Below, piece after piece: positions 4,980 through 26,077 of a DNA stretch of 64,000 nt. The DNA is from an uncultured Bryobacterales bacterium (GTDB taxonomy: Bacteria; Acidobacteriota; Terriglobia; Bryobacterales; UBA6623): positions 2,184,435 through 2,248,434 of the forward strand of contig OY282420.1 in NCBI GenBank assembly GCA_958295955.1. Direction: 5' to 3'. The position numbers were made by a program, and so were the translations under genes. Below the pieces are notes generated by a model. It was given only the letters and a program-made list of their open reading frames with translations, made no database searches and was not told the DNA's origin. Position 1 is the first letter of the stretch; every line of letters begins with the position of its first letter.

Positions 4980-5816
4980 ATGGCCCGCAAAAGACGTGTT
5001 TGCGCCGTCAGCTACCTCAACACTGCGCCGCTTGTTTGGGGCATGTCGCGCGGACCGCAGCAAGGCGTTTTCGATCTGAGCTTCGAATTGCCCTCCGTCT
5101 GCGCAGACCGGTTGCGGGCGGGGTCCGTCGATGTCGGGCTGATTCCCGTGATCGAGTTGGCGCGGCAACCCGATACGGCGGTCGTGCCGGGATGCTCCAT
5201 CGCTTGCGACGGACCGGTGCGCAGCATTCTGCTCGTTTCCAAGAAGCCGTTCGCTGCGATCGAATCGTTCGCGGCGGACAACGGCTCGCGAACGTCCTCG
5301 GTGCTGATGCAGATTCTCGCGGCGCGCAAATACGGGCGGCGGCCGCGGGTCCGCCTGCATCCCCCGCGGCTGGACGCAATGCTGGAGTCGGCCGATGCGG
5401 CGTTGGTCATCGGCAATCCGGCTCTGCGGCTCGACCCGATGATGGATAGTTGGCGCGGCCGGCCGGTGTATGTTTACGACTTGGGGGCCGAGTGGAGCGA
5501 GATGACCGCGCTGCCCATGGTGTTCGCGGTCTGGGCGGCGAAGACGTCCGGGGGGGACGACGCGGCGGCCGCGGCGCTCAATGCCTCGGCGGCCTACGGC
5601 CGGGCGCGCATCGACGAGATCGTCCGCGTTGAAAGCGCGCGTCTCGATTTTCCGCCCGCGTTGGTGCGGACGTACCTGACGGAGCGCATCCGCTTCGATT
5701 TGGGTGAGCGCGAATGCGCCGCGCTGCGGCTTTACCTGCGGCTTGCCGCCGAATTGGATTTGGCGCCGCCGCTTCCCGAGATCCCTTTTCTCGCCTGCCG
5801 GGAGGCAGCGGTTTAG
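4980..5816 (+). CDS. mqnA: Chorismate dehydratase MqnA (futalosine pathway)
   Basis: MqnA converts chorismate to 3-[(1-carboxyvinyl)oxy]benzoate, the first step of futalosine-dependent menaquinone synthesis. The 278-residue protein begins MARKRRVCAVSYLNTAPLVW; the SYLNTAPL motif is diagnostic of the MqnA/MqnD periplasmic-binding-like fold. Further matches are VDVGLIPVIELA, the DNGSRTSSVL segment, and ALVIGNPAL. The ATG at 4980 is preferred over an in-frame ATG at 4908, which would overlap larE and precede the TACAAT box. mqnC follows after 12 bp, so the two form one operon. The remaining futalosine genes (mqnB, mqnD, mqnE) are not in the window. Confidence 0.93.
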   Translation: MARKRRVCAVSYLNTAPLVWGMSRGPQQGVFDLSFELPSVCADRLRAGSVDVGLIPVIELARQPDTAVVPGCSIACDGPVRSILLVSKKPFAAIESFAADNGSRTSSVLMQILAARKYGRRPRVRLHPPRLDAMLESADAALVIGNPALRLDPMMDSWRGRPVYVYDLGAEWSEMTALPMVFAVWAAKTSGGDDAAAAALNASAAYGRARIDEIVRVESARLDFPPALVRTYLTERIRFDLGERECAALRLYLRLAAELDLAPPLPEIPFLACREAAV

Positions 5817-5828
5817 AAGGCGCCGACG

Positions 5829-6860
5829 ATGACCAAAACCCAAGCGCTTGAGTATTTTGCAAGCGACGATCTGATCGGCGTCGGCATGGCGGCCGACGCG
5901 CTGCGCGCGAAACTGCATCCGCACGGCATCGCCAGCTACATCGTCGACCGCAACATCAACCACACCAACGAATGCACCGAGTACTGCAGCTTTTGCGCTT
6001 TTTACCGGCCGATGGGCCACAAAGAAGGCTACGTTCTGCCGTTCGAGACGATCGCCGAGAAAATCCGGGAGACCGTCGAGCTCGGCGGTACCGGCGTGCT
6101 CATGCAGGGCGGCGTCAATCCGGACCTGAAGATCGAGTACTTCGAAGATTTGTTCAGCCGCCTGAAGCAACGCTTTCCGGCGGTGCAGTTGCACTGCCTG
6201 TCGGCGCCCGAGATACTGACGATCGCCGAGGTGAGCGGTCTTTCGATTCACGATACGCTGCTGCGGCTGCGCGATGCGGGAATGGACTCGATGCCCGGCG
6301 CCGGCGCCGAAATCCTCGATGACGAGGTGCGGGTGCGCATCGCCCGTCTGAAGTGCCGCACGGCGGACTGGATCGACGTTCACCGCACCGCGCACGCCAT
6401 CGGCATGAACACGACCGCGACGATGATGTTCGGCTGCGGCGAGACCGTCGAGCACCGCGTCAATCATCTGGAGACGATTCGGCGCTTGCAGGAAGAGACC
6501 GGCGGGTTCACGGCGTTCATCCCCTGGCCGTTTCAGCCGGACAATACCCCGCTCGGCAGCAAGGTTCCCGAAGAAGCGACGGCTTGCGAGTTTCTCAAGA
6601 CGCTGGCGGTTTCCCGGCTCTACCTCGACAACATCGTGAACATCCAGACGTCTTGGGTGACGCAGGGCTTGAAGGTCTGTCAGTTGGGATTGCGCTTCGG
6701 CGGCAACGACGTCGGCAGCGTAATGCTGGAAGAAAACGTCGTGCGCCAGGCGGGCGCCGCCCATAGCGCAACCGAGGAAGACTTGCGGCGCATGATCCGC
6801 GAGGCGGGTTTCATACCCAAGCAGCGCGATACGCTGTACCGCACCTACTACTTGAACTGA
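5829..6860 (+). CDS. mqnC: Cyclic dehypoxanthinylfutalosine synthase MqnC (radical SAM)
   Basis: This radical-SAM enzyme cyclizes dehypoxanthinyl futalosine in menaquinone synthesis. The 343-residue protein carries the CX3CX2C iron-sulfur motif as CTEYCSFC, followed by AFYRPMGHKEGYVL. It also has GAGAEILDDEVR, TTATMMFGCGETVEHR, GGFTAFIPWPFQP, and the C-terminal EENVVRQAG. The FYRPxGxxEGYVL context and the PWPFQP motif distinguish it from the related MqnE. It is transcribed with mqnA 12 bp upstream. Confidence 0.95.
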   Translation: MTKTQALEYFASDDLIGVGMAADALRAKLHPHGIASYIVDRNINHTNECTEYCSFCAFYRPMGHKEGYVLPFETIAEKIRETVELGGTGVLMQGGVNPDLKIEYFEDLFSRLKQRFPAVQLHCLSAPEILTIAEVSGLSIHDTLLRLRDAGMDSMPGAGAEILDDEVRVRIARLKCRTADWIDVHRTAHAIGMNTTATMMFGCGETVEHRVNHLETIRRLQEETGGFTAFIPWPFQPDNTPLGSKVPEEATACEFLKTLAVSRLYLDNIVNIQTSWVTQGLKVCQLGLRFGGNDVGSVMLEENVVRQAGAAHSATEEDLRRMIREAGFIPKQRDTLYRTYYLN

Positions 6861-7357: not shown

Positions 7358-9013
7358 ATGAATCGACGGTCTGCGCTCCGGCGAACTCTCTCGTTTCTCG
7401 CGCTCGCCGGGCTGTTCGCGGCCTGCCTGCCCGCGGCGAACAATCCCGAGCGCGTGGAATGGTTCCGCGATTTGGGACTGGGCCTTTTTATCCATTGGAG
7501 CCTCGACAGCCAGGTGACCGCGGTGATCAGCCACTCGATGGTCGGGGCGGACAAGGAATATCTCGAGCGCTACGTCAGCGAGTTGCCGCGGTCGTTCAAC
7601 CCCAAGAAATTCGACCCGCGGGAGTGGGCCCGCCTGGCGCGGCTTGCCGGGTTCCGTTATGTAGTTTTCACGGCGAAGCACCATTCCGGCTTTTGTATGT
7701 TCGGCACCGAGACAACCGATTTCAATATCATGAACACCCCCTATGCGCGCGACGTGACGAAGGAGTTGTTCGACGCCTTCCGCGCGGAGGGCATCGCCAT
7801 CGGCTGGTATTTCTCGCCGGACGATTTTCACTACCTCTACCGCTCGGGGACGCTCATCAGCCGCCTGCGGCCCGAGGCGCTTCCGCCCAACAACAGCGGC
7901 TTGCTGGCGCTCAACCTGGCGCAAGAGGAGGAGTTGATGACGAATTACGGCAAGATCGATGTCGTATTTTTCGACCCGCCGACGGGTTCGCCCATCGCGC
8001 GCGACCGGCTTGTGCAAGAAATGAAGGAGATCGTCTGGCGGCTCGACCCCGATACCGTGATTACGCGCGGGGAGATCGAGACGCCCGAGCAGTACACTCC
8101 CGGCGTGCCCCCGGACGAGGCATGGGAGGGCAACATGACCATGGGCGCGCAGTGGCAGTACCGCGGCACGAACGAGCGCTACAAATCGGGTACGGACCTG
8201 ATTCGGACATGGATCGAGACGCGCGCCAAGGGCGGGAATTTCCTGTTGAACATCGGCCCCAAGCCCGACGGCGAGATGCCCATCGAGCAGGAAGCGCGCA
8301 TGCGCGAGATGGGCCTGTGGCGGCTGGTCAACGAAGAGGCGGTGCTGGCGGTGCGTCCCTGGGTCATCACCAACGAGGGCGATATCTGGTTCACCAAGGC
8401 GAAGGACGCCGCCACGGTCTATGCCTTCGTCACCAACGCGGATTGGGCCTGGGGCGCGCGGAAGACGTTTACGCTGAAATCGGTCAAGGCTACGGCGGAC
8501 ACGACCGTGCGGGTGCTCGGACAGAACGAGACCGTCCTCGAATACCGCCCCGACGTGACCCCCAAGACGGAGTTCGAGCAGACCGCCGCCGGGCTGCGCA
8601 TTACGGCGTTCCGCGCCCAGAGGCTCTACAACGACCGCCGCTGGCCGAATCCGGTTGTGCTCAAGATTACGCACGCCGAGGCGGGACTGCGGCCGCCGGT
8701 CGTGGTTACGCTCTCCACTGCCGCCTGGGGCGCGCGGGGCGCAACGCTGGCGGCCGAATTGAAAGACCTCGGCGACGCGTCGAGCGTCGCGGTCGGGTTT
8801 GAATACCGCCGGAAAAAGAGCACCGCGGAAATGTATGAGCCGGATGACCCGTGGAAAACCGTCGGCAAGAAAAAGCAGAGTCTTTCCGCGCCGGGCGGGT
8901 TTTCGGCGGTTCTGTCGAAAGTCGATGCCCGCCGCGATTGGGAATACCGCGCGGTGGCTGAACATCCCAAGGTGACGTTGTACGGCATGACGGCGGCGTT
9001 GCCGGCGCGTTAG
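7358..9013 (+). CDS. Alpha-L-fucosidase, glycoside hydrolase family 29
   Basis: GH29 enzymes remove terminal alpha-L-fucose from glycans by a retaining mechanism. The 551-residue protein has a signal peptide (RRTLSFLALAGLFAACLPAA) and the family landmarks: ERVEWFRDLGLGLFIHWS near the N-terminus, RYVVFTAKHHSGFCMF (substrate-binding His pair), IAIGWYFSPDDFHYL, then IDVVFFDPP, where the Asp fits the nucleophile. GGNFLLNIGPKPDGEMP closes the barrel. The C-terminal about 170 residues form beta domains. The ATG at 7358 is used; CACAAT at 7342-7347 is a likely -10 box only 10 nt upstream, with no clear ribosome site. A GH105-type hydrolase follows after 15 bp, probably in one operon. Confidence 0.92.
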   Translation: MNRRSALRRTLSFLALAGLFAACLPAANNPERVEWFRDLGLGLFIHWSLDSQVTAVISHSMVGADKEYLERYVSELPRSFNPKKFDPREWARLARLAGFRYVVFTAKHHSGFCMFGTETTDFNIMNTPYARDVTKELFDAFRAEGIAIGWYFSPDDFHYLYRSGTLISRLRPEALPPNNSGLLALNLAQEEELMTNYGKIDVVFFDPPTGSPIARDRLVQEMKEIVWRLDPDTVITRGEIETPEQYTPGVPPDEAWEGNMTMGAQWQYRGTNERYKSGTDLIRTWIETRAKGGNFLLNIGPKPDGEMPIEQEARMREMGLWRLVNEEAVLAVRPWVITNEGDIWFTKAKDAATVYAFVTNADWAWGARKTFTLKSVKATADTTVRVLGQNETVLEYRPDVTPKTEFEQTAAGLRITAFRAQRLYNDRRWPNPVVLKITHAEAGLRPPVVVTLSTAAWGARGATLAAELKDLGDASSVAVGFEYRRKKSTAEMYEPDDPWKTVGKKKQSLSAPGGFSAVLSKVDARRDWEYRAVAEHPKVTLYGMTAALPAR

Positions 9014-9028: not shown

Positions 9029-10636
9029 ATGCGGCGTTTGACCTTGGCTTTTCTTGCGGCGGCGGCGGTATTGGGCGCGCAGCGCTTCCATACCGCGGTC
9101 GGAGTTACCGAGCGGGGCAGCCCTATCCGCGCCGCGGTCGCTTGGGAGGCTTTGCAGTTCGAATTGCCGAAGCCCGCCGTGCTGTTGGTCGGCGGACTGG
9201 ACGGCTCTCGAAAATCTACCGATGTCGTCAACGCATTTTTGCGCGGCGGTCTCGCCGGGGAAGACTTCGCCGTTTCCGCAATTCCCAACGCATTGCCCGA
9301 CGGTCTTTCGTCGCCGGCCCGCGCCGCGGTCGTCGCCGATTTTCCGCCCGAAGGGGTCGCTTACGGCGGACGGAACCCGGAAGCGCGCTATCTCCGGCGG
9401 TTCATCGGCATGCATGCGCCCGACCTGGTCGTGGAGGTTCGCGACTCGGGCGCCTCCGGCGGGTTGACGCAGGCGCCGGCGGCCGGCAACGCGCCCGCCG
9501 GAGTCGGCTCCGTATCCACGCTCGAATTCATGCTTGCGGATACGGAAGAAAACGCTGCGCAACGCCTGCTCGGCGCGATCCGCTCGGCGCTCGCGGAGTT
9601 GTCCGCCGTCCGCCGGCCGTCCGCCGCGCGCGAGGAAATGCGCCGCCGGCTGCGGCGCGACCCGGTCGAGATTGCCGAGCAGTTGGAAACGGCATACGGA
9701 CATCGACTCGATCAGGTCGCCTACATCCCGGCGCTCGCGCTGATAGGGCGCTTGCGCCTCGACGACCTTACCGCATCGCGCAGCCGTCTGGCGGACGTGG
9801 AAAAAATCGCCGCGCCGTATCTGTCGGGAACGCCGACGATGGGCGAGCGCGTCTCGGGCAGCATCCTCTCCGGACATCTCCTGTTCGCCGATCTGTACGA
9901 GTACACGGGCAAGCCTGCGTATCTCGACTTGGTGCGCCGGGCGGCGGACTTGGGGTTCAACGCCGATGGGTCGCCGAGACGCTCCATGCCGTTCCACAAC
10001 GAGATGAGCGATGCGGTCTTCATGGGCTGCGCCATCCTTGCCCGCGCGGGCCGGCTGACGGGAGAAGCGCGCTATTTTCGGATGGCGCTGCGGCACCTGC
10101 GTTTCATGCAGGCTCTGGACCTGCGGGAAGACGGCCTGTACCGCCACTCGCCGCTCGATGAGGCGGCTTGGGGCCGCGGCAACGGTTTTCCGGCGTTGGG
10201 ACTGGCGCTGGCGCTGTCCGACTGGCCGGAGGATCGGCCGGATCGAAAAATGCCGCTCGCCGCCTTCCGCGAGCATATGGCGGCGCTTGTCCGCCGGCAG
10301 GACGAAACCGGCGCCTGGCATCAGGTGATCGACCGTGTCGAGAGTTACCGCGAGTTCACGGCGACGGCGATGATCGGTTTCGCGCTCACGCGGGGGTTGC
10401 GGCGCGGCTGGCTGGACCGCCGGGAGTTCGAATCGGCGGCCGATCGGGCGTGGTATGCGCTGAAAACCAGGATTGCCCCGGACGCTTCGCTTGTCGATGT
10501 CTGCCGCAGCACCGGCAAGCAGCCGAGCTTGCGGGCGTACTTCGACCGCGAGGCGATTCTGGGGCGGGACGACCGCGGCGGAGCGATGGCGCTGCTGGCG
10601 GCGACCGAACGCGCCTACTGGCAGCGGGAGCGGTAG
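9029..10636 (+). CDS. Secreted GH105/GH88-type hydrolase with N-terminal peptidase-M14-like domain
   Basis: The 535-residue protein has a signal peptide (RRLTLAFLAAAAVLGA). The C-terminal about 300 residues match the GH105/YteR (unsaturated rhamnogalacturonyl hydrolase) fold: MPFHNEMSDAVFMGCAIL holds the catalytic-type Asp, then AWGRGNGFPALGLALAL, ETGAWHQVID, ESYREFTATAMIGFAL, and VDVCRSTGKQ. Residues about 20-190 resemble a zinc carboxypeptidase (M14) start, GVTERGSPIRA followed by AVLLVGGLDGSRKS, but the HxxE zinc ligands are replaced, so this half is probably inactive. GH29 lies directly upstream; the pair suggests breakdown of fucose- and uronate-containing plant or microbial polysaccharide. 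The GH105 call is firm; the N-terminal call is tentative. Confidence 0.8.
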   Translation: MRRLTLAFLAAAAVLGAQRFHTAVGVTERGSPIRAAVAWEALQFELPKPAVLLVGGLDGSRKSTDVVNAFLRGGLAGEDFAVSAIPNALPDGLSSPARAAVVADFPPEGVAYGGRNPEARYLRRFIGMHAPDLVVEVRDSGASGGLTQAPAAGNAPAGVGSVSTLEFMLADTEENAAQRLLGAIRSALAELSAVRRPSAAREEMRRRLRRDPVEIAEQLETAYGHRLDQVAYIPALALIGRLRLDDLTASRSRLADVEKIAAPYLSGTPTMGERVSGSILSGHLLFADLYEYTGKPAYLDLVRRAADLGFNADGSPRRSMPFHNEMSDAVFMGCAILARAGRLTGEARYFRMALRHLRFMQALDLREDGLYRHSPLDEAAWGRGNGFPALGLALALSDWPEDRPDRKMPLAAFREHMAALVRRQDETGAWHQVIDRVESYREFTATAMIGFALTRGLRRGWLDRREFESAADRAWYALKTRIAPDASLVDVCRSTGKQPSLRAYFDREAILGRDDRGGAMALLAATERAYWQRER

Positions 10637-11697: not shown

Positions 11698-13266
11698 TCA
11701 CTCGGCAGCCGTGCGTTCCTCGCGCGGCGGCGGCGCGGTAACGATCGTCGCCGCGATGCGGTCGATCAGGCTGCGCACGTACGAGGTGGAGATGCCGAAA
11801 TTATTTGCATAGATCGAAAACGCGAACGCGCGTTCGTCGGCCGCGGCGGCGTAGCCCGAGAGCGCGGTGACGTGCGACATGGTGCCGGTCTTGGCCAGGA
11901 TGCGGCCCCGCGCGGGCGTGCGGGAAAAGCGCCAATCGAGCGTGCCGTCGCGGCCGGCGACGGGCAGGCTGTCGAGGTAGGTCTTGCGGTCCGGCGAGTT
12001 CCACATGTAGGCCAGCAGCTTCACCGTGCCGCTCGGAGTGACCAGGTTGTGCCGCGAGAGCCCCGATCCGTCGCGCAGATAGTATTCGCCCGGAGCAAGG
12101 CCCGCTTCCTTGAGAAAATCGCGGAGCTCTTCAACCGTCGACCGGATGCCGGCGATGTTGCGCTCGTGCAGCGCGGCTTCGCGCAGCAGCATTTCCGCAT
12201 GCAGGTTCTGGCTCTCTTTGTTGACGATGCGGATCGCTTCCTTCAACGGCGGCGAGGCGCGCGCGGCGAAGACTGACTTGTACGGCTTGGTCTTGCGCGG
12301 CGAGGCGCGGGAGATGAGATTGTGCGCGCGGTCGGGGAACAGGTGCTCGGAGCGGGTGGTGCCGCTGATTTCGATACCGAAGGCTTCGAGTTCCTTGCGC
12401 AGCGCGGCCGCGGCGTAACGCGCCGGGTCGCCGGCGGCCAGCTTGAACGACCGCCCGCGCGAGCGCAGGGAAATTCCGCCGAACACCACCAGCTCGGACG
12501 GGGCGGAGCCGCGCCGAATGTCGAGTCCGGCGGCCACGGTGCGGGCGGCCGCGGTCGCCGTCCGGTTGGCGATGGAGAAATAGGCGACCGGCGGCGTGCT
12601 GCGCACCCGCGCCGCTCTGCCCGCCGCGCCGCCGGGCGTCACGTGTACCGCGATCAGGTTGTCGTTGAACGCCAGGGCGCTCACCGGGCTGCCGTAGTTC
12701 AAAAGCGTGTCTGCGTACGACCAGCCGGGAGGATACGGCTCCCAGACGTAGCGGGAATCGTCGCCTACGATGTCGCCCCGCACCTTGCGCAAACCCGCTT
12801 CGTAGATTTGCCGCGCCAGGTTTTTCATCGGCGCCATTCTGTCCGCGCCGTATTCGCGCCGCCGGTCGTAAGGGACGATCCGCGCCGAAAGATTCGGATC
12901 GCCCCCGCCGACGAGCCGCAGGTCGCCGTCGAGCACCCCGTTTTCATCCGGCTGCGCAGCGGATACTACAGTTGTCGTGAAGCGATAATCGGCCCCCAGG
13001 CGGCGCAGAGCCAGCGCCGTCGAAAACAGCTTGGCGTTGGAGGCGGGCAGAAAGAGCTTGTCGGCGTTGTGCTCGAAAACGGTTTCCCCGGCGCGCAGAT
13101 CGACGACCTCGATGCCCCAGAACGCCCGCCGCGCCGACGGCCGCTCGAGAATCGCCTCGATCTGGTCCGCAATGGCCGCTTGCCGCGATGCGGACGCCTG
13201 AGCTCCTACAAGAGTAGGAGCTGGAATCGCCGCGGCGATCAGCGCAATCGTGCCTACAATCCGCAA
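11698..13266 (-). CDS. dacB: D-alanyl-D-alanine carboxypeptidase/endopeptidase, PBP4 type
   Basis: PBP4-type enzymes trim or cleave peptidoglycan cross-links in the periplasm. The 522-residue protein has a signal peptide (about 1-23) and all three penicillin-binding motifs: SxxK as SNAK at Ser76-Lys79 within FLPASNAKLFS, the SxN-type motif in YYLRDGSGLSRHN, and KTG in ILAKTGTMSHV. Length and the large domain inserted between SxxK and SxN fit class C PBP4. No ATG is available; the TTG at 13266 gives a proper signal peptide and starts 11 nt after the hemB stop, so it is probably cotranscribed with hemB. Confidence 0.9.
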   Translation of the reverse strand: MRIVGTIALIAAAIPAPTLVGAQASASRQAAIADQIEAILERPSARRAFWGIEVVDLRAGETVFEHNADKLFLPASNAKLFSTALALRRLGADYRFTTTVVSAAQPDENGVLDGDLRLVGGGDPNLSARIVPYDRRREYGADRMAPMKNLARQIYEAGLRKVRGDIVGDDSRYVWEPYPPGWSYADTLLNYGSPVSALAFNDNLIAVHVTPGGAAGRAARVRSTPPVAYFSIANRTATAAARTVAAGLDIRRGSAPSELVVFGGISLRSRGRSFKLAAGDPARYAAAALRKELEAFGIEISGTTRSEHLFPDRAHNLISRASPRKTKPYKSVFAARASPPLKEAIRIVNKESQNLHAEMLLREAALHERNIAGIRSTVEELRDFLKEAGLAPGEYYLRDGSGLSRHNLVTPSGTVKLLAYMWNSPDRKTYLDSLPVAGRDGTLDWRFSRTPARGRILAKTGTMSHVTALSGYAAAADERAFAFSIYANNFGISTSYVRSLIDRIAATIVTAPPPREERTAAE

Positions 13267-14389: not shown

Positions 14390-15139
14390 ATGTCCGGTCA
14401 CTCGAAATGGGCGACGATCAAACACAAAAAGGCCGCTACGGACGCCAAGCGCGGCAAGGTTTTTACGCGCCTCATTCGCGAGATACAGATCGCCGCGCGT
14501 GAAGGCGACCCCGACCCCGAGGCCAACCCGCGGCTGCGCACCGCGGTTGCGGCGGCGAAGGCCCAATCCATGCCCGCGGACAATATCAAGCGGGCGATTT
14601 TACGCGGCAGCGGCCAACTTGAAGGAGAAACCCTCGAAGAGATCACCTACGAGGGGTACGCGCCGGCGGGAGTCGCGGTGTTCATTGAGGTGGTCACGGA
14701 CAACCGCAAGCGCACGGTGGCCGAGTTGCGCCACATATTCTCGAAAAACGGCGGAAATTTGGGCGAGTCCGGCAGTGTCGCCTGGATTTTCAGCAAGCAG
14801 AGCCTGATCGTGGTCAACCGCTCGCAGGCCGAGGAAGAGCAGTTGATGGAGTTGGCGCTGGGCGCCGGAGCGGAAGATCTCAAGGAGGAAGGAGAGCATT
14901 GGGAAGTCTATTCTTCTCCCGAAGCGCATGCCGACGTTCTCGCCGCCCTGGAAGCTGCCGGCATTCCGCCCGCGTCCGCCGCCGTGACGCGCATTCCCTC
15001 GAGCACGGTGAAGGTGGAGGGCAAGCAGGCCGGATCGGTGATTCGCATGATTGAAAAACTCGAAGAGCAAGACGACGTGCAAGACGTCTTCGCCAATTTC
15101 GATATCGAAGAGAGCGAGTTGGAAGCGCTCGCGACCTGA
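14390..15139 (+). CDS. yebC: YebC/PmpR-family protein
   Basis: This is a widespread cytosolic family, described as a transcriptional regulator and more recently as an aid to ribosomes at difficult proline motifs. The 249-residue protein has the full family length and the hallmark start [20 protein letters not shown]. It continues with [15 protein letters not shown], then PADNIKRAI, and [23 protein letters not shown]. The C-terminus carries [26 protein letters not shown] (conserved VxNxxD-like end, [11 protein letters not shown]). ruvC follows after 8 bp, the classical yebC-ruvC arrangement. Confidence 0.97.
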
Positions 15140-16256: not shown

Positions 16257-17164
16257 TCCGCCTCGCCGACGATCAGGTCGTAAATGCGGTCGAGGTCGTC
16301 TTGCGTCCCGTAGAAGATCTTGATGTATCCGCTTTTGCCGCGCTTGCGCTGCTGAATCGCCACGGGCGTTCCGAGAGAGCGTTCGAGCTTGTCGATGGCG
16401 GCGGCCACATTGGGGTCGGCCGCGGGTTTCTTTTTGGGCGGCGGCGGATTGGCTTTCTCGCGGGCCAGCCGTTCCACTTCGCGGACCGAAAGTTTTTGCT
16501 TGACGGCGCGGTCGGCCAGCGCGAGCTGAGCGCCGCGGTCTTCGAGCGACAGTAGCGCGCGCGCGTGTCCCATTTGCAGGCTGCCCCGGCGCAGCAGGTC
16601 CTGGATTTCGCCGGGCAGGTTCAGCAGCCGCAGGTGGTTGGTGATGTTCGTCCGGCTCTTGCCCGTTCGCGCCGCCAACTCCTCGTGGCTGAGAGCGAGC
16701 TCGCCAATCATCCGCTGCAAAGCCGCGGCGATCTCGAGCGGATTGAGGTCTTCGCGTTGGATATTCTCGACGAGCGCGGCCTCGAGGATTTTGTCGGGCT
16801 CGAGTTCCCTGACGATTGCCGGGACGGCGCTCAGGCCCGCAAGTTCCGCGGCTCGCCGCCGCCTTTCCCCGACGATTAGCGAATAGCGCGAACCGTTCGG
16901 GCGCACCAGGACGGGCTGCAACAGCCCGTCGGCCCGAATCGACTGGGCGAGCTCTTTCAGCGATTCCTCGTCGAACGCGGAGCGCGGCTGCAACGGGTTC
17001 GGGTCGATCGCTGCGATCGGGATGAGCGCCACTGCGTCTTCGACTGCCCTTGCCGCCGGCGCCGCTTGTCGGCCCTTGGGGTGCGCGGGGAGCAGCGCCC
17101 CCAACCCCTTGCCGAGAGCCTTGCGGCGTTTTGCGGAACTCGATTTTTCAGGCATGGAAACCAT
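16253..17164 (-). CDS. parB: Chromosome-partitioning protein ParB (CTP-dependent clamp)
   Basis: ParB loads at parS and slides along DNA as a CTP-dependent clamp, guiding origin segregation with ParA. The 303-residue protein begins with a basic tail containing KALGKGLGALLP, the ParA-stimulating segment. The CTP/parS N-domain follows: NPLQPRSAFDEESLKELAQSI, the GERRRRAAELAG arginine motif, and VENIQREDLNPLEIA. The helix-turn-helix SHEELAARTGKSRTNITNHLRLL and a C-terminal dimer domain complete it. The ATG at 17164 is 3 nt after the parA stop; an ATG at 17155 is an alternative. Confidence 0.97.
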   Translation of the reverse strand: MVSMPEKSSSAKRRKALGKGLGALLPAHPKGRQAAPAARAVEDAVALIPIAAIDPNPLQPRSAFDEESLKELAQSIRADGLLQPVLVRPNGSRYSLIVGERRRRAAELAGLSAVPAIVRELEPDKILEAALVENIQREDLNPLEIAAALQRMIGELALSHEELAARTGKSRTNITNHLRLLNLPGEIQDLLRRGSLQMGHARALLSLEDRGAQLALADRAVKQKLSVREVERLAREKANPPPPKKKPAADPNVAAAIDKLERSLGTPVAIQQRKRGKSGYIKIFYGTQDDLDRIYDLIVGEAD

Positions 17165-20564: not shown

Positions 20565-21863
20565 ATGAAAGTTCTGGTCATCGGCGGCGGAGGCCGCGAG
20601 CATGCTCTGAGTTGGAAGATCGCGCAAAGCGGCGGTGTCGAACAGGTGTACTGCACGCCGGGAAACGCCGGCATGGCGATGGAAGCCTCATGCATTCCCG
20701 GAGATATCCTCGACCCGCGGGAAATGGCGTCCTTGGCGGAAACGCTGGGCGTATCTTTTACGGTCGTAGGCCCGGAAGCGCCGCTCGTAGCGGGCGTCGT
20801 CGACGAGTTCGAAGCCCGCGGCCTACCGGTCGTCGGCCCGTCTCAGGCCGCCGCGCAACTCGAAGGAAGCAAGGTTTTCGCCAAGCTCTTCCTGAACGAG
20901 TGCAACATACCGACGGCGCCCTTCGCGGTCGTCGAGAGCGTCTCGGAAATCGATGCTCATATAGGCCGGTTCGGGTTCCCCGTAGCGCTGAAAGCCGACG
21001 GGCTTGCCGCCGGCAAGGGAGTCGTCATCGCCCGGGACGAAGCCGAAGCCCGCGAGCAGGCCCGCAAAATGCTCAGCGGGCAGTTGGTGGGCGGCGCCGG
21101 GCGGCGCCTTCTTGTCGAGCGCTTTCTGCGCGGGCGCGAGGTCAGCTTTATCGTTCTGAGCGATGGAGAAAGGTATTTCGAATACCCCGCGACGCAAGAC
21201 CACAAGGCGGCCTTCGATAACGACGAAGGCCCCAACACCGGCGGGATGGGCGCCTATTGCGATGACGGCATCGTTTCCGATGACCTCCGCAGACAAATCG
21301 TCGCAACGGTTGTGGAGCCCGCCTTGGCGGGCATGCGCCGGCGCGGGCAAGTTTTTCGCGGCTTTTTGTACTGCGGGTTGATGATTGGCGGCGAAGGGCT
21401 GCAGGTTCTCGAATTCAACGTGCGCATGGGAGACCCCGAAACGCAGCCGTTGATGTACAGGCTGAACGGCGACTTCGCCGGGCTTTTGCACGGCGCGGCG
21501 CGGAAAAGCCTCGATTCGACACTTGTAGGAGTTGACCGCGGCCCGACCGCCTGCGTGGTCATGGCCTCGCAGGGTTACCCGGGAAGCTACCGCAAGGGTT
21601 TCGCCATTGGCGGCCTTCGAGAGGCCGAGGCGGCGGGCGCGAAAGTCTTCCATGCGGGGACGCAACTCTCGCGGGGCGTTCCCGTAAGCGCGGGCGGGCG
21701 CGTCCTCGGCGTAACGGCGCGGGGCGCGGATCTGCAATCCGCCCTGGACAACGCCTACGCCGCCGTCGAGAAAATTCATTTCGAGGGCGCCCGCCGGCGC
21801 GGGGACATCGGCCGCAAGGGGTTGGAACGCGAAAAGCGCGAAAAGGTAAAAGTGTTAGGGTGA
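20565..21863 (+). CDS. purD: Phosphoribosylamine-glycine ligase (GARS)
   Basis: PurD joins glycine to phosphoribosylamine with ATP in purine synthesis. The 432-residue protein begins KVLVIGGGGREHALSWKIA and has the ATP-grasp segments: FPVALKADGLAAGKGVVIA, then VSFIVLSDGERYFEYPATQDHK, then NTGGMGAYCDD (GGMG-type motif) and VLEFNVRMGDPETQPLM, which holds the metal-binding residues. The C-terminal rudiment ends with a basic tail, ERREKREKVKVLG-like, longer than usual. The TonB receptor ORF overlaps its stop by four bases (GTGA). A damaged copy of the last about 150 bp of this gene lies at 24714-24859. Confidence 0.96.
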   Translation: MKVLVIGGGGREHALSWKIAQSGGVEQVYCTPGNAGMAMEASCIPGDILDPREMASLAETLGVSFTVVGPEAPLVAGVVDEFEARGLPVVGPSQAAAQLEGSKVFAKLFLNECNIPTAPFAVVESVSEIDAHIGRFGFPVALKADGLAAGKGVVIARDEAEAREQARKMLSGQLVGGAGRRLLVERFLRGREVSFIVLSDGERYFEYPATQDHKAAFDNDEGPNTGGMGAYCDDGIVSDDLRRQIVATVVEPALAGMRRRGQVFRGFLYCGLMIGGEGLQVLEFNVRMGDPETQPLMYRLNGDFAGLLHGAARKSLDSTLVGVDRGPTACVVMASQGYPGSYRKGFAIGGLREAEAAGAKVFHAGTQLSRGVPVSAGGRVLGVTARGADLQSALDNAYAAVEKIHFEGARRRGDIGRKGLEREKREKVKVLG

Positions 21864-24670
21864 AGGCGGGGAAGGGGGGGCTCCTGCTTGTGGGAATGGG
21901 CGGCATCCGCAGAAACGTCCTGCGTGCGGGATGCGGGTTGTTGCTCCTGTTTTCGCTTGGCGCGGCGGCGGCCCAAACCCCATGCCTCAGAATCCGGGTC
22001 GTCGATCCCTTATCGGCTCCGATAACGGCCGCGACGGTCGCCATCGGCGGCCGCGAGCAGCCGACGGACGACTCCGGCGCCGCGGTCTTCTGTGAATTGG
22101 GGACGGGTCCGCATGAAATCGTCGCCGCGGCGGCGGGTTTCGCCCCCAAGCTCGAAACCGTGGAGCGGTCCGAGGGGCTGGTGAACATCGAGTTGGAGCT
22201 GGAGTCCGTGACCGAGGAGTTGGTGGTTGTCGGCAGCCGCACCGAGGGGCGCACCGTGCTGGAGTCCGCCGTCCCCGTGGATCTCATCACGGCGGAGGAG
22301 TTCACGGAGCAAGGCGGCGCGGACCTCGCCGATCGATTGCGCAACACCGTCCCCTCGTTCAACGTCAACGCGCAGCCGATCAGCGACGGCGGCACCATCG
22401 TGCGCCCGGCCGGCCTGCGCAACCTGGCCCCCGACCATACGCTGGTGCTGGTGAACGGCAAGCGCCGGCATCGCGCCGCGATCATTCATTGGTTTACGAA
22501 CGGCGTCTTCGACGGATCGCAAGGCCCCGACCTGTCGGTTATTCCGTCGATCGCCATCCGGCACGCCGAGGTGCTGCACGACGGCGCCTCGGCGCAATAC
22601 GGATCGGACGCCATCGCCGGCGTCATGAACTTCGTACTCAAGGACGCGGCTTCGGGAGGCAGCATGCAGTTCGGCGCCGGCGGCTACGCGGCCGGCGACG
22701 GACAGAGCCTCACCTTCGCGGCCAACGCGGGCTTGCCGTTGGGCGAAGGCGGCTTCGCCAACCTCAGCATCGAATACGGCAACAGCGCGCCCACGAGCCG
22801 CAGCGTGCAGCGCTACGACGCGCAGCAATTGATCGCCAACGGCAATACGCACGTGCGCAGCCCGACGGCTCAAATATGGGGCTCTCCCCGAATCGATGAC
22901 GATGTCAAGTTCTGGGGCAACTTCGGCAAATTCATCGGTGGAACCAGGCAGATCTACGCTCATACTAATTACGCCTCCAAGCGCGTGGATGGAGGTTTTT
23001 ACTTCCGCAATCCGCACACCCGGTCCGGCGTGTACAGCGCGGACGGCGGCAAGACGCTGCTGGTCGGCGACGTGCTCGACGCGCAGGACGGCATCGTTGA
23101 CGGCTCCGCGGGGTGCCCGACGGTGCGCGTCGCCGGCGGCCGGGTGCTGGACCCGGAAAATTTCGCAACCGTGCTGAGCGACCCCAATTGCTTCACCTTT
23201 CACCAGCCCTTCGCCGGGCAGCCCGAAGGCTCGCCGGGAGGGCATACCCCGCAATTCGGCGGCGTGGCGCGGGATGCTTCGGTCGTAGCCGGCGTCCGCG
23301 GCGCGTTTGCAGGAAATTTCGTCTGGGACGCAAGCATCGGCGTGGGTTCCAATGCGGTCGATTTTTTCATCTACGACACGGTCAACCCTTCTTTGGGCCC
23401 CGAATCTCCGTTCGAGTTCGCCCCCGGCAAATACACCCAGCAGGAGACCAATTTCAATATCGATCTTTCGTACGCCGCGAGCGACGCGGTGCATCTCGCC
23501 GCGGGCGCGGAGTGGCGCAACGAGCGGTTCACGGTCAGCCCCGGCGAAAGAGCCTCGTGGGAAATCGGACCCTACGCGGCGCAGGGCTTCGGCAGCGGAT
23601 CGAACGGCTTCAACGGATTCAGCCCGATGACCGCGGGAACCTGGGACCGTCGCAACTACGCGCTGTACGCAGACGTCGAGTTGGGCGGCCCCGGCAGCCG
23701 CTACACGGTCGGCGGAGCGGTCCGCGGCGAGCGGTTCGCGGACTTCGGGACGACGATCAATTACAAGGGGTTGGCCCGATACGAGCTTGTCGCAGGTCTG
23801 GCCGTGCGCGGCAGCGCAAGCAGCGGATTCCGCGCCCCTACGCCGGGGCAGCAGAACGCGTTCAACGTATCGACCGTGCCCGGCATATCGCAAGCGATCG
23901 TCAATCAGGGCACGATTCCGCCGACTTCGCGCGTCGCGGCGGTTGTCGGCGGCGAGCCGCTACAGCCGGAAAAGTCGCGCAACTACACGGGCGGCGTGGT
24001 TATCGACAAGGGTCCGTTCAGCTTGTCGGGCGATTATTTCCGCATCGACCTCCGCGACCGCCTCTGGGTCTCAAGGGATCATCGACTCACCCCTTCGCAA
24101 GTCGAGGGACTGCTCGCCGAGGGCATCACGAGCGCGGGGAACTTACAGCAGTTCCGCTTTTTCACCAACGATTTCGACACCCTTTCGCAGGGCGTGGACA
24201 TGGTCGCTACGTTCACGCCGCCCCAAATGCAAGGGGAGACGGTCTTCAGTTTCCTGTTGAGTCACATCGGGAGCAGCGTTACGAGATACAACCCGGAGAC
24301 AGTGACGCCGGCCCGAATCAACCTGTTGGAGAACGTTCTGCCGGAATCGCGTTGGAGTCTGACCGTCAGGCGCAAGGAGGGCAAGTTCCGCTTGCTGGCG
24401 CGGCTCAGTTACTGGGGCGATTTCTTCGACAAGGAAGACAACCGCAACTACCCGGGCGAGTACCTGAGCGATCTCGAAGTCACCTACCAATTGACCGACG
24501 CGTTCTCCATATCCGGCGGCGGCCGGAACATCTTCAACAATTACCCGGAGATCAACCCCAACGCTTACACCGGTCTGGGAAACTTGTATCCCCAATCTAC
24601 GCCGTTCGGCTTCAACGGCGGATACTACTACATGCGCTTGAACTATGAGTGGAAGTCGGGGAAATTGTAA
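21860..24670 (+). CDS. TonB-dependent receptor with carboxypeptidase-regulatory-like domain
   Basis: This is an outer-membrane beta-barrel importer powered by TonB. The 936-residue ORF starts with a GTG overlapping the purD stop; the internal ATG at 21896 (MGGIRRNVLRAG) gives a cleaner signal peptide ending near AAAAQ. Residues about 40-115 form a CarboxypepD_reg beta sandwich (IRVVDPLSAPITAATVAIGG). The TonB-box-like segment is EELVVVGSRTEGRTVLES, then the plug domain (DLADRLRNTVPSFNVN, DGASAQYGSDAIAGVMNFVL). The barrel ends in YYYMRLNYEWKSGKL. The substrate is unknown. The downstream oxidoreductase and a fragment of a second such receptor suggest the receptor and oxidoreductase once formed a repeated unit. 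Confidence 0.9.
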   Translation: MKAGKGGLLLVGMGGIRRNVLRAGCGLLLLFSLGAAAAQTPCLRIRVVDPLSAPITAATVAIGGREQPTDDSGAAVFCELGTGPHEIVAAAAGFAPKLETVERSEGLVNIELELESVTEELVVVGSRTEGRTVLESAVPVDLITAEEFTEQGGADLADRLRNTVPSFNVNAQPISDGGTIVRPAGLRNLAPDHTLVLVNGKRRHRAAIIHWFTNGVFDGSQGPDLSVIPSIAIRHAEVLHDGASAQYGSDAIAGVMNFVLKDAASGGSMQFGAGGYAAGDGQSLTFAANAGLPLGEGGFANLSIEYGNSAPTSRSVQRYDAQQLIANGNTHVRSPTAQIWGSPRIDDDVKFWGNFGKFIGGTRQIYAHTNYASKRVDGGFYFRNPHTRSGVYSADGGKTLLVGDVLDAQDGIVDGSAGCPTVRVAGGRVLDPENFATVLSDPNCFTFHQPFAGQPEGSPGGHTPQFGGVARDASVVAGVRGAFAGNFVWDASIGVGSNAVDFFIYDTVNPSLGPESPFEFAPGKYTQQETNFNIDLSYAASDAVHLAAGAEWRNERFTVSPGERASWEIGPYAAQGFGSGSNGFNGFSPMTAGTWDRRNYALYADVELGGPGSRYTVGGAVRGERFADFGTTINYKGLARYELVAGLAVRGSASSGFRAPTPGQQNAFNVSTVPGISQAIVNQGTIPPTSRVAAVVGGEPLQPEKSRNYTGGVVIDKGPFSLSGDYFRIDLRDRLWVSRDHRLTPSQVEGLLAEGITSAGNLQQFRFFTNDFDTLSQGVDMVATFTPPQMQGETVFSFLLSHIGSSVTRYNPETVTPARINLLENVLPESRWSLTVRRKEGKFRLLARLSYWGDFFDKEDNRNYPGEYLSDLEVTYQLTDAFSISGGGRNIFNNYPEINPNAYTGLGNLYPQSTPFGFNGGYYYMRLNYEWKSGKL

Positions 24671-24680
24671 CGCCGGCGGC

Positions 24681-24720
24681 CGCCTGCAGCAACCGCGGCA
24701 GTGAGAAAGGCGAGGCGTTC
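24681..24720 (+). pseudogene. Oxidoreductase gene fragment (Gfo/Idh 5' region)
   Basis: In the oxidoreductase frame this piece reads CSNRGSEKGEAF, against CSNRGREKGEAF in the intact gene at 25148-25183. It has five mismatches in 40 bp. It ends at a GGCGTT shared with purD (24714-24719), a likely microhomology junction with the next fragment. It is too short to encode anything. Confidence 0.65.
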
Positions 24721-24859
24721 CCGTAAGCGCGGGCGGGCGCGTCCTCGGCGTAACGGCGCGGGGCGCGGATCTGCAATCGGCGCCGGACAACGCCTACGCC
24801 GCCGTCGCGGGGATATTGGCTGCAAAGGGTTAAAATATACAAGGCAAGGAATGTTGTAA
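24714..24859 (+). pseudogene. purD 3'-end fragment with 31-bp deletion
   Basis: 24714-24778 is identical to purD 21675-21739 over 65 bp, and the match continues with three substitutions to about 24803. A 31-bp deletion relative to purD then shifts the frame, after which homology resumes (24804-24833 versus 21799-21828). The substitutions after the deletion are all transitions toward A/T, and most are synonymous in the original purD frame (RGDIGCKGL). The fragment lacks the rest of the gene. Confidence 0.85.
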
Positions 24860-24938
24860 TATATCGGCAGGCGCACAGAGCCGGGGAAGAAGAACTCGAC
24901 AATTGAAAGACTTTTACCTTCACGCACCGCCCGCCGCC

Positions 24939-25067
24939 GGCGGCTTCGCCAACCTCAGCAGCGAATACGGCAATGCCGGCCCGACCAGCCGCAGCGCGCA
25001 GCGCGACGACGCGAAGCTGCTCTACAAACGTCGGAATTCTACGACTGTAGGAGAAGAAGCGCTCTGA
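24939..25067 (+). pseudogene. TonB-dependent receptor gene fragment
   Basis: The frame reads GGFANLSSEYGNAGPTSRSA, matching GGFANLSIEYGNSAPTSRSV of the intact receptor (22748 onward). About four fifths of the bases and 17 of 24 compared residues are identical from the NLS onward. The match covers the early barrel only. The same frame stays open to a TGA at 25065-25067, which overlaps the CTG start of the downstream oxidoreductase. The degree of divergence suggests a former paralog and not a very recent copy. Confidence 0.7.
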
Positions 25068-26077
25068 GAGTCGGACTTGTCGGTACCGGAGCGATCGCGC
25101 ACAAGCACGGCGACTGCTATCGCGCGATAGGCTATCGGCTCGTCGGCTGCAGCAACCGCGGCCGCGAGAAGGGCGAGGCGTTTGCCGCGAAGTACGGCTG
25201 CGAATTCCTCGGCGGCTACGAAGAGCTTTGCCGACGGGACGACATCGACTATATCGATGTCTGCACTTTCCCCGACGCGCACCTCGACATCTGCCGCGCG
25301 GCGGCGGCGAACGGGAAACACGTTCTGCTGCAGAAGCCGATGGCGCTCACCCTCGACGCTTGCCGGGAGATGATCGCCTTGTGCGGGTCGGCCGGCCTGC
25401 GCCTCGGAGTCGTCAGCCAGCACCGCTTCGACGCATGTAGTATTTTCCTGAAAAAGGCGCTCGCGGCCGGCCGGCTGGGCAAGCTGCTGCAAGTGGACGG
25501 TTACGTCAAGTGGCATCGCCCGCAGAGCTACTACGATCGTCCCGGCAAGGGCTCCTGGGCGGTGGAAGGCGGCGGCGCCCTGATCAACCAGGGGATCCAC
25601 ACGGTCGATGTGATGCAGTATCTGGGGGGGCGGTTTTCGCAGGTCTTCGCCAACTGGCAACTCGGCGCCGCGCACGTCATGGAGGGAGAAGACATAGTGA
25701 ACGCCGTCGTCTCCTACGCGAGCGGGGCAACCGGCGTGGTGCAAGCGGCGACGGCCGTGCTGCCGGGATACCCGGAGAGGATCGAGCTTCACGGAACCAA
25801 AGGATCGGCGGTCATTACCGGCGACCGGCTGACCGCCTGGAACGTGGCAGGCGACCCCGGCGCCGACGCTCCGCTCGCCGCGGGAGTCGAATCCGGCGCG
25901 GCCGATCCGATGGCCATTTCCATCGAAAATCTGAAACTCCAATTTCTCGATTTCGGCCAAGCCGTTGAAGAAGGCAGAGCGCCGCTGGTGGACGGAGAAG
26001 AAGGCTTCCGCGCGCTGCAAATCGTGCTCGGCATATACGAGTCCGCGCGCGGGAACAAGCCCGTCAAGTTGATATGA
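25064..26077 (+). CDS. Gfo/Idh/MocA-family oxidoreductase with probable CTG start
   Basis: This 337-residue NAD(P)-dependent dehydrogenase-type protein has the Rossmann motif RVGLVGTGAIAHKHG at its extreme N-terminus, then VCTFPDAHLDICRAAAANGK, LLQKPMALT (QKP in place of the usual EKP), and GGALINQGIHTVDVMQYLGG, which carries the catalytic-type His. No ATG, GTG or TTG precedes the conserved start in frame. The best start is the CTG at 25064, with AGGAG (25049-25053) 10 nt upstream; ATG is what the family alignment predicts there. It may therefore be weakly translated. It is a distant paralog of the oxidoreductase at 10649-11662. Confidence 0.82.
   Translation: MRVGLVGTGAIAHKHGDCYRAIGYRLVGCSNRGREKGEAFAAKYGCEFLGGYEELCRRDDIDYIDVCTFPDAHLDICRAAAANGKHVLLQKPMALTLDACREMIALCGSAGLRLGVVSQHRFDACSIFLKKALAAGRLGKLLQVDGYVKWHRPQSYYDRPGKGSWAVEGGGALINQGIHTVDVMQYLGGRFSQVFANWQLGAAHVMEGEDIVNAVVSYASGATGVVQAATAVLPGYPERIELHGTKGSAVITGDRLTAWNVAGDPGADAPLAAGVESGAADPMAISIENLKLQFLDFGQAVEEGRAPLVDGEEGFRALQIVLGIYESARGNKPVKLI

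Follow-up and report, generated by a model that had tools for sequence, protein, structure and literature searches.

According to PMC7661048, which cites Reams and Roth, tandem duplications in bacteria are as a rule unstable and disappear without leaving a trace. In E. coli, small circles that enter the chromosome by a single crossover duplicate 109-950 bp of their target, an outcome noticed during tests of homology-facilitated illegitimate recombination, and where the related process forms illegitimate joints, most of these have 3-10 bp of micro-homology (PMC3240628). For duplication remnants of the kind described here, the literature yielded general precedents only. The locus lies in a window of 64,000 nucleotides from an uncultured Bryobacterales bacterium (Acidobacteriota) whose genome comprises 4.58 Mb in 3 contigs, and the relatives used for comparison are Bryobacterales MAGs from its own family (f1) and a sister family (f2). 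Three intact reading frames on the + strand define the setting: purD (20565-21863; Pfam GARS_N/A/C), a TonB-dependent receptor gene (R, 21860-24670; Pfam Plug and TonB_dep_Rec) and, as assigned by Pfam, a Gfo/Idh/MocA oxidoreductase gene (O, 25064-26077). R and O are separated by a gap (24671-25063), located downstream of purD, that harbors the relics of all three genes.

The pieces follow one another along the gap in the order O', purD', R', all on the + strand. O' (24674-24719) is drawn from the 5' region of O and corresponds to approximately 25136-25182, with 35 of 40 bases identical when 24681-24720 is aligned to 25144-25183. The relic of purD falls into two parts: the first (24714-24778, +) is identical to purD 21675-21739 at 65 of 65 positions, and the second (24779-24831, +) carries 7 differences in 53 positions and has lost 31 bp after 24807. 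R' (24939-25017), a piece of the TonB receptor gene, corresponds to R 22748-22826 and matches it at 68/79 positions, or 62/72 when 24939-25010 is compared with 22748-22819. Each source is the best match in the whole 4.58-Mb genome, with genome-wide E-values of 1.3e-7 for O', 2.5e-39 for purD' and 8e-20 for R', and each alignment scores above all of 200 dinucleotide shuffles, confirming the three gene pieces, their positions, their order and their direct orientation as proposed in the initial annotation. The relic copies differ from their source genes by 4-14%. No convincing source was found for 24838-24938 and approximately 25018-25038, which leaves some 120 bp of the gap without an explanation.

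The point at which the end of one unit meets the beginning of the following one is preserved at 24710-24719 (+), where O' passes into purD' through the common sequence GCG(A/G)GGCGTT. The corresponding sequences, GCGAGGCGTT in O and GCGGGGCGTT in purD, agree at 9 of 10 positions, and the alignments bear out the earlier reading that GGCGTT is common to both sides of this joint.

The divergence of the pieces reveals a single sharp step rather than a mixture of ages. Differences from the source amount to 0/65 in purD' up to position 21739 of the source and 7/53 beyond it, 10/72 in R' and 4/33 in O' outside the joint; past 21739 the divergence is thus uniform at approximately 13% (heterogeneity p=0.97). 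The step at 21739/21740 is pronounced: the rest of the relics differ at 21/158 sites against 0/65 in this tract (Fisher p=0.0007), and p=0.024 was obtained in a run-length test on purD' alone. As the breakpoint was picked after the data had been seen, the p-values of the two rate comparisons are generous. As judged from these alignments, the step at approximately 21739 looks like the endpoint of a crossover or conversion and not like three events of different age. The earlier proposal that purD' is far more similar than the other pieces, through gene conversion or different ages, therefore stands for the first 65 bp but not for the remainder, which has diverged to the same extent as R' and O'; the uniform divergence past 21739 speaks against different ages, while a conversion tract stays one reading of the step. 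The suggestion that the post-deletion changes in purD' are all transitions toward A/T applies to the 4 changes after the 31-bp deletion but not to the 3 before it (C>G, C>G and T>C). Third codon positions account for 11 of the 21 relic differences, the same share as between R and R2, the paralog of R introduced below (0.53), yet also compatible with a neutral share of 1/3 (p=0.10), and the differences between R and R' are spread evenly over the codon positions (2, 4, 4). O' has the Ala codon GCC, as in most relatives in the family, at a site where O has GGC, which indicates that the intact O has also changed since the two copies parted.

In 16 of the 17 other family genomes and in one genome of the sister family, purD lies 2-56 bp upstream of O with no receptor between them, and the same receptor-free pair was found, within as much as 17 kb of surrounding sequence, in ten public MAG loci (L009-L018) that partly overlap the other relatives, several being the same genomes under public names. 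R was not found in the purD-O gap of any relative examined. Because purD and O are adjacent in 16 of the 17 family relatives, R is a gain of this lineage, acquired before or together with the duplication. Two full receptor-oxidoreductase units were present in none of the 17 family relatives, all of which stand outside the genus of the host, where a lineage-specific event would not show. The gene closest to R is in the same genome: R2 (C1:1550554-1553268) shares 75% amino acid identity with R, forms one clade with it against the receptors of the relatives (100% bootstrap) and is homologous to it within the coding region only. R' matches R at 67/78 positions and R2 at 65/78, and a likelihood placement puts R' slightly outside the R+R2 pair by a non-significant margin (delta lnL 2.2); R' is thus not significantly nearer to R than to the base of R+R2. 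At two sites R' has bases that are found in relatives and are absent from both R and R2. As R' may or may not descend from R, an unequal exchange with a divergent form of the locus would fit as well as a tandem duplication within the genome.

The locus is not the only one in this genome to carry a short local repeat. We scanned 1.25 Mb of the host genome (G000) and 0.8 Mb of the relative G006 for two-copy local repeats of 28-250 bp, at least 90% identical and 0.6-15 kb apart, and found 7 direct repeats, at 6 loci, and none inverted in the host sample, as compared with 3 direct and 3 inverted in the relative. At three other loci in the host (L118, L121 and L182) the 3' tail of a host gene stands on both sides of lower-GC cargo. 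In L118 an exact 43-bp direct repeat (6586-6628 and 8878-8920), which is the 3' end of an M24 peptidase gene including its stop codon, encloses a 2.25-kb insert of 48% GC with DUF4325 and PIN genes. In L121 an exact 88-bp direct repeat (10106-10193 and 12739-12826) of the 3' end of the adjacent gene, by reading of its sequence a putative M48-type peptidase, surrounds a GmrSD-type restriction gene; an N6/N4 DNA methylase gene adjoins the latter. In L182 the tail of an FAA hydrolase gene (197 bp at 95%; 14838-15034 and 16738-16934) lies on either side of a CsgG-domain gene. Among relatives, the neighbors of the M24 peptidase gene are not conserved, the short loci examined for L121 contained only the putative M48 gene itself, and no close homolog of the FAA hydrolase was found in the family.

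The recurrence of these gene-tail repeats is a lead, and the numbers are small. They invite the doubtful idea that this genome has time and again acquired new genes downstream of its own through single crossovers with small circles or fragments, each leaving a 40-200 bp copy of the host gene's 3' end beyond the cargo. The cases would then be purD with the receptor, the M24 peptidase with DUF4325-PIN, the putative M48 peptidase with GmrSD and the FAA hydrolase with the CsgG-like gene, and it is a similarly tentative suggestion that the gap is a decayed, doubly recombined example among them. Other repeats were noted in passing. In L181 another direct-repeat pair around inserted genes is made up of rhodanese-gene fragments (2456-2523/2800-2846 and 5570-5674), located past an ORF of 676 aa that has no Pfam match. 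L132 (10652-14700) is a further recent local duplication, in which paralogous genes in tandem share long stretches of identity (277 bp) and are separated by short, shuffled pieces. L120 (2747-5080; C1 ~557.7-560.1 kb) is a CRISPR array of about 36 repeats of 36 nt at a spacing of 65-66 nt, with one inverted copy of the repeat 4.7 kb away (9735-9769) that could be a tracrRNA anti-repeat.

Given the order and orientation of the pieces, for which an extra direct copy is the simplest reading, we consider it probable that the gap is the decayed rest of one additional direct copy of the segment running from the 3' end of purD through the receptor to the 5' end of O, by either of two partner routes. 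Between purD and O, which were ancestral neighbors, a receptor gene would first have been gained. One unequal event would then have linked O, near its base 117, with purD at 21675 through 6-10 bp of common sequence, giving purD-R-O'|purD'-R'-O. The joint can be read directly in the DNA, and the unequal event behind it is what we infer from it. Deletions that followed would have left little of O' and next to nothing of the second receptor, and would have taken 31 bp from purD'. The duplication is favored because the pieces lie close to their sources, share the direct orientation and have the sole order permitted by a direct duplication, because micro-homology is present at the O'/purD' joint, and because the other short two-copy local repeats found in the 1.25-Mb sample are all direct, as scars of duplication or single crossover would be. 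The receptor-free purD-O pair in 16 of the 17 family relatives, the uniform divergence past 21739 with its sharp step from 0/65, and the E. coli precedent for target duplication (PMC3240628) also speak for it. Counting against it, four separate deletions must be assumed, no genome compared has the intermediate with two full units, R' is placed as described above and approximately 120 bp of the gap are unmatched. The initial annotation had proposed a tandem duplication followed by large deletions; its core, an extra direct copy that was later gutted, is retained, while the account needed amending in that the receptor was gained in this lineage before or with the duplication, the pieces do not look like a mixture of ages and recombination with a diverged locus fits equally.

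The two routes within this explanation differ in the partner of the unequal event; both fit, and each by itself is a plausible account falling short of an even chance. If the partner was the same chromosome, a tandem duplication of purD'-R-O' would be old (approximately 13% diverged) and the first 65 bp of purD' would have been homogenized later by gene conversion. The order, orientation and locality of the pieces and the micro-homology at the joint all agree with such a purely intragenomic origin, as do the even distribution of R/R' differences over codon positions, expected of a decaying copy, and the ancestral codon kept in O' where O has changed, since both copies had time to change; the price is an extra conversion event that ends sharply at 21739, and R' does not cluster with R, though that placement is not significant. 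If the partner was instead incoming or circular DNA with a locus diverged by approximately 13%, a homologous crossover near 21739 would have been combined with an illegitimate joint at GGCGTT. Such a single-crossover (Campbell-type) or homology-facilitated illegitimate insertion would have brought purD tail-R-O' from a diverged relative into a locus with an older receptor, represented by R'. Here the crossover itself accounts for the identity of purD' up to one point and its divergence thereafter to the level of R' and O', so the step needs no extra event or gene conversion. The third-position share equal to that of R and R2, the marginal position of R' outside R+R2, the recurrence in this genome of inserts flanked by copies of gene 3' tails and the E. 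coli precedent (PMC3240628) point the same way, and the configuration agrees with an insertion, as the cargo R is missing between purD and O in relatives and is followed by purD' in this genome. Against this route, no donor is known, two versions of the receptor would be required, one in each of two related genomes and both situated between purD and O, and the third-position excess is not significant.

A large duplication is not the only way to assemble neighboring sequences, as local template switching during repair could have copied bits of the adjacent genes into the gap in one step without a larger unit ever having existed. The pieces are short and local and micro-homology marks the one readable joint, but we regard such a patchwork as improbable: random patching would give the order O'-purD'-R' with all pieces direct in approximately 1 of 48 cases (2^3 orientations x 6 orders), none of the 7 local two-copy repeats is inverted whereas template switching should often invert, and a single event predicts equal identity throughout rather than a step from 0/65 to 13%. 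That the similarities arose by chance or during assembly is extremely improbable, with nothing in its favor beyond a lack of read data; the E-values and shuffles speak against chance, and pieces up to 14% removed from their sources, at a locus on a 4.44-Mb contig, could not be created by an assembler. Two further arrangements were considered and set aside. A long target-site duplication with R in the break would put R after O', but R precedes O'. No integrase gene lies between purD and purD', where the insert codes only for R and the truncated O', which rules out an integrase-borne element at the 3' end of a gene.

Toward its downstream end the gap may retain part of the ancestral spacer. A dyad, CTACGACTGTAG, lies at 25039-25050 (+), and CTACGANTGTAG occurs only once on either strand of the genome. 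The same 12-mer is present in the purD-O spacer of the relative G007 (L007/L082), and because the dyad recurs there and is single-copy in the host, it and the bases immediately ahead of O probably survive from the spacer that originally separated purD and O. The dyad presumably resembles operators of the BlaI/MecI type. O starts with CTG (25064-25066), at the position of an ATG in 18 f1/f2 relatives, with no in-frame ATG, GTG or TTG upstream of it, and a GGAG at 25050-25053, 10 bases ahead of the CTG, fits as a candidate ribosome-binding site. As the frame of O is intact, the protein may still be produced, possibly with lower efficiency. The distance of O from purD, now 3.2 kb, and the replacement of its ATG start by CTG are likely side effects of the scar. 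The gap itself is debris without detectable function. Rfam contained no known RNA family matching it and promoter and terminator signals did not exceed chance, which speaks against a structured RNA or regulatory element there.

As a single locus the gap is ordinary duplication debris, a piece of genome wear, but its recombination scars are unusually readable. Its value is that of a dated scar, in which three things can be read together: the gain of a receptor within a purD-oxidoreductase pair typical of the family, a joint with micro-homology, and an abrupt change of identity that marks a crossover or conversion. Should gene-tail duplications around foreign genes recur across the genome, they would represent a simple, integrase-free means of gene gain in an uncultured lineage that can be counted from assemblies alone. 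With tandem duplication and decay of the extra copy the locus has in common the direct orientation, the order R-O'-purD'-R'-O, the short homology at the joint and the persistence of fragments, and it differs from typical tandem duplications in that a readable scar persists, in which a single tract of 65 bp has diverged far less than the other parts. With the insertion of small circles in E. coli (PMC3240628) it shares the sequence of gene, cargo and partial gene copy, whereas here no vector or donor is known and the locus includes a second receptor piece and later deletions. The gap is thus a case of known recombination scarring, and a well-preserved one.
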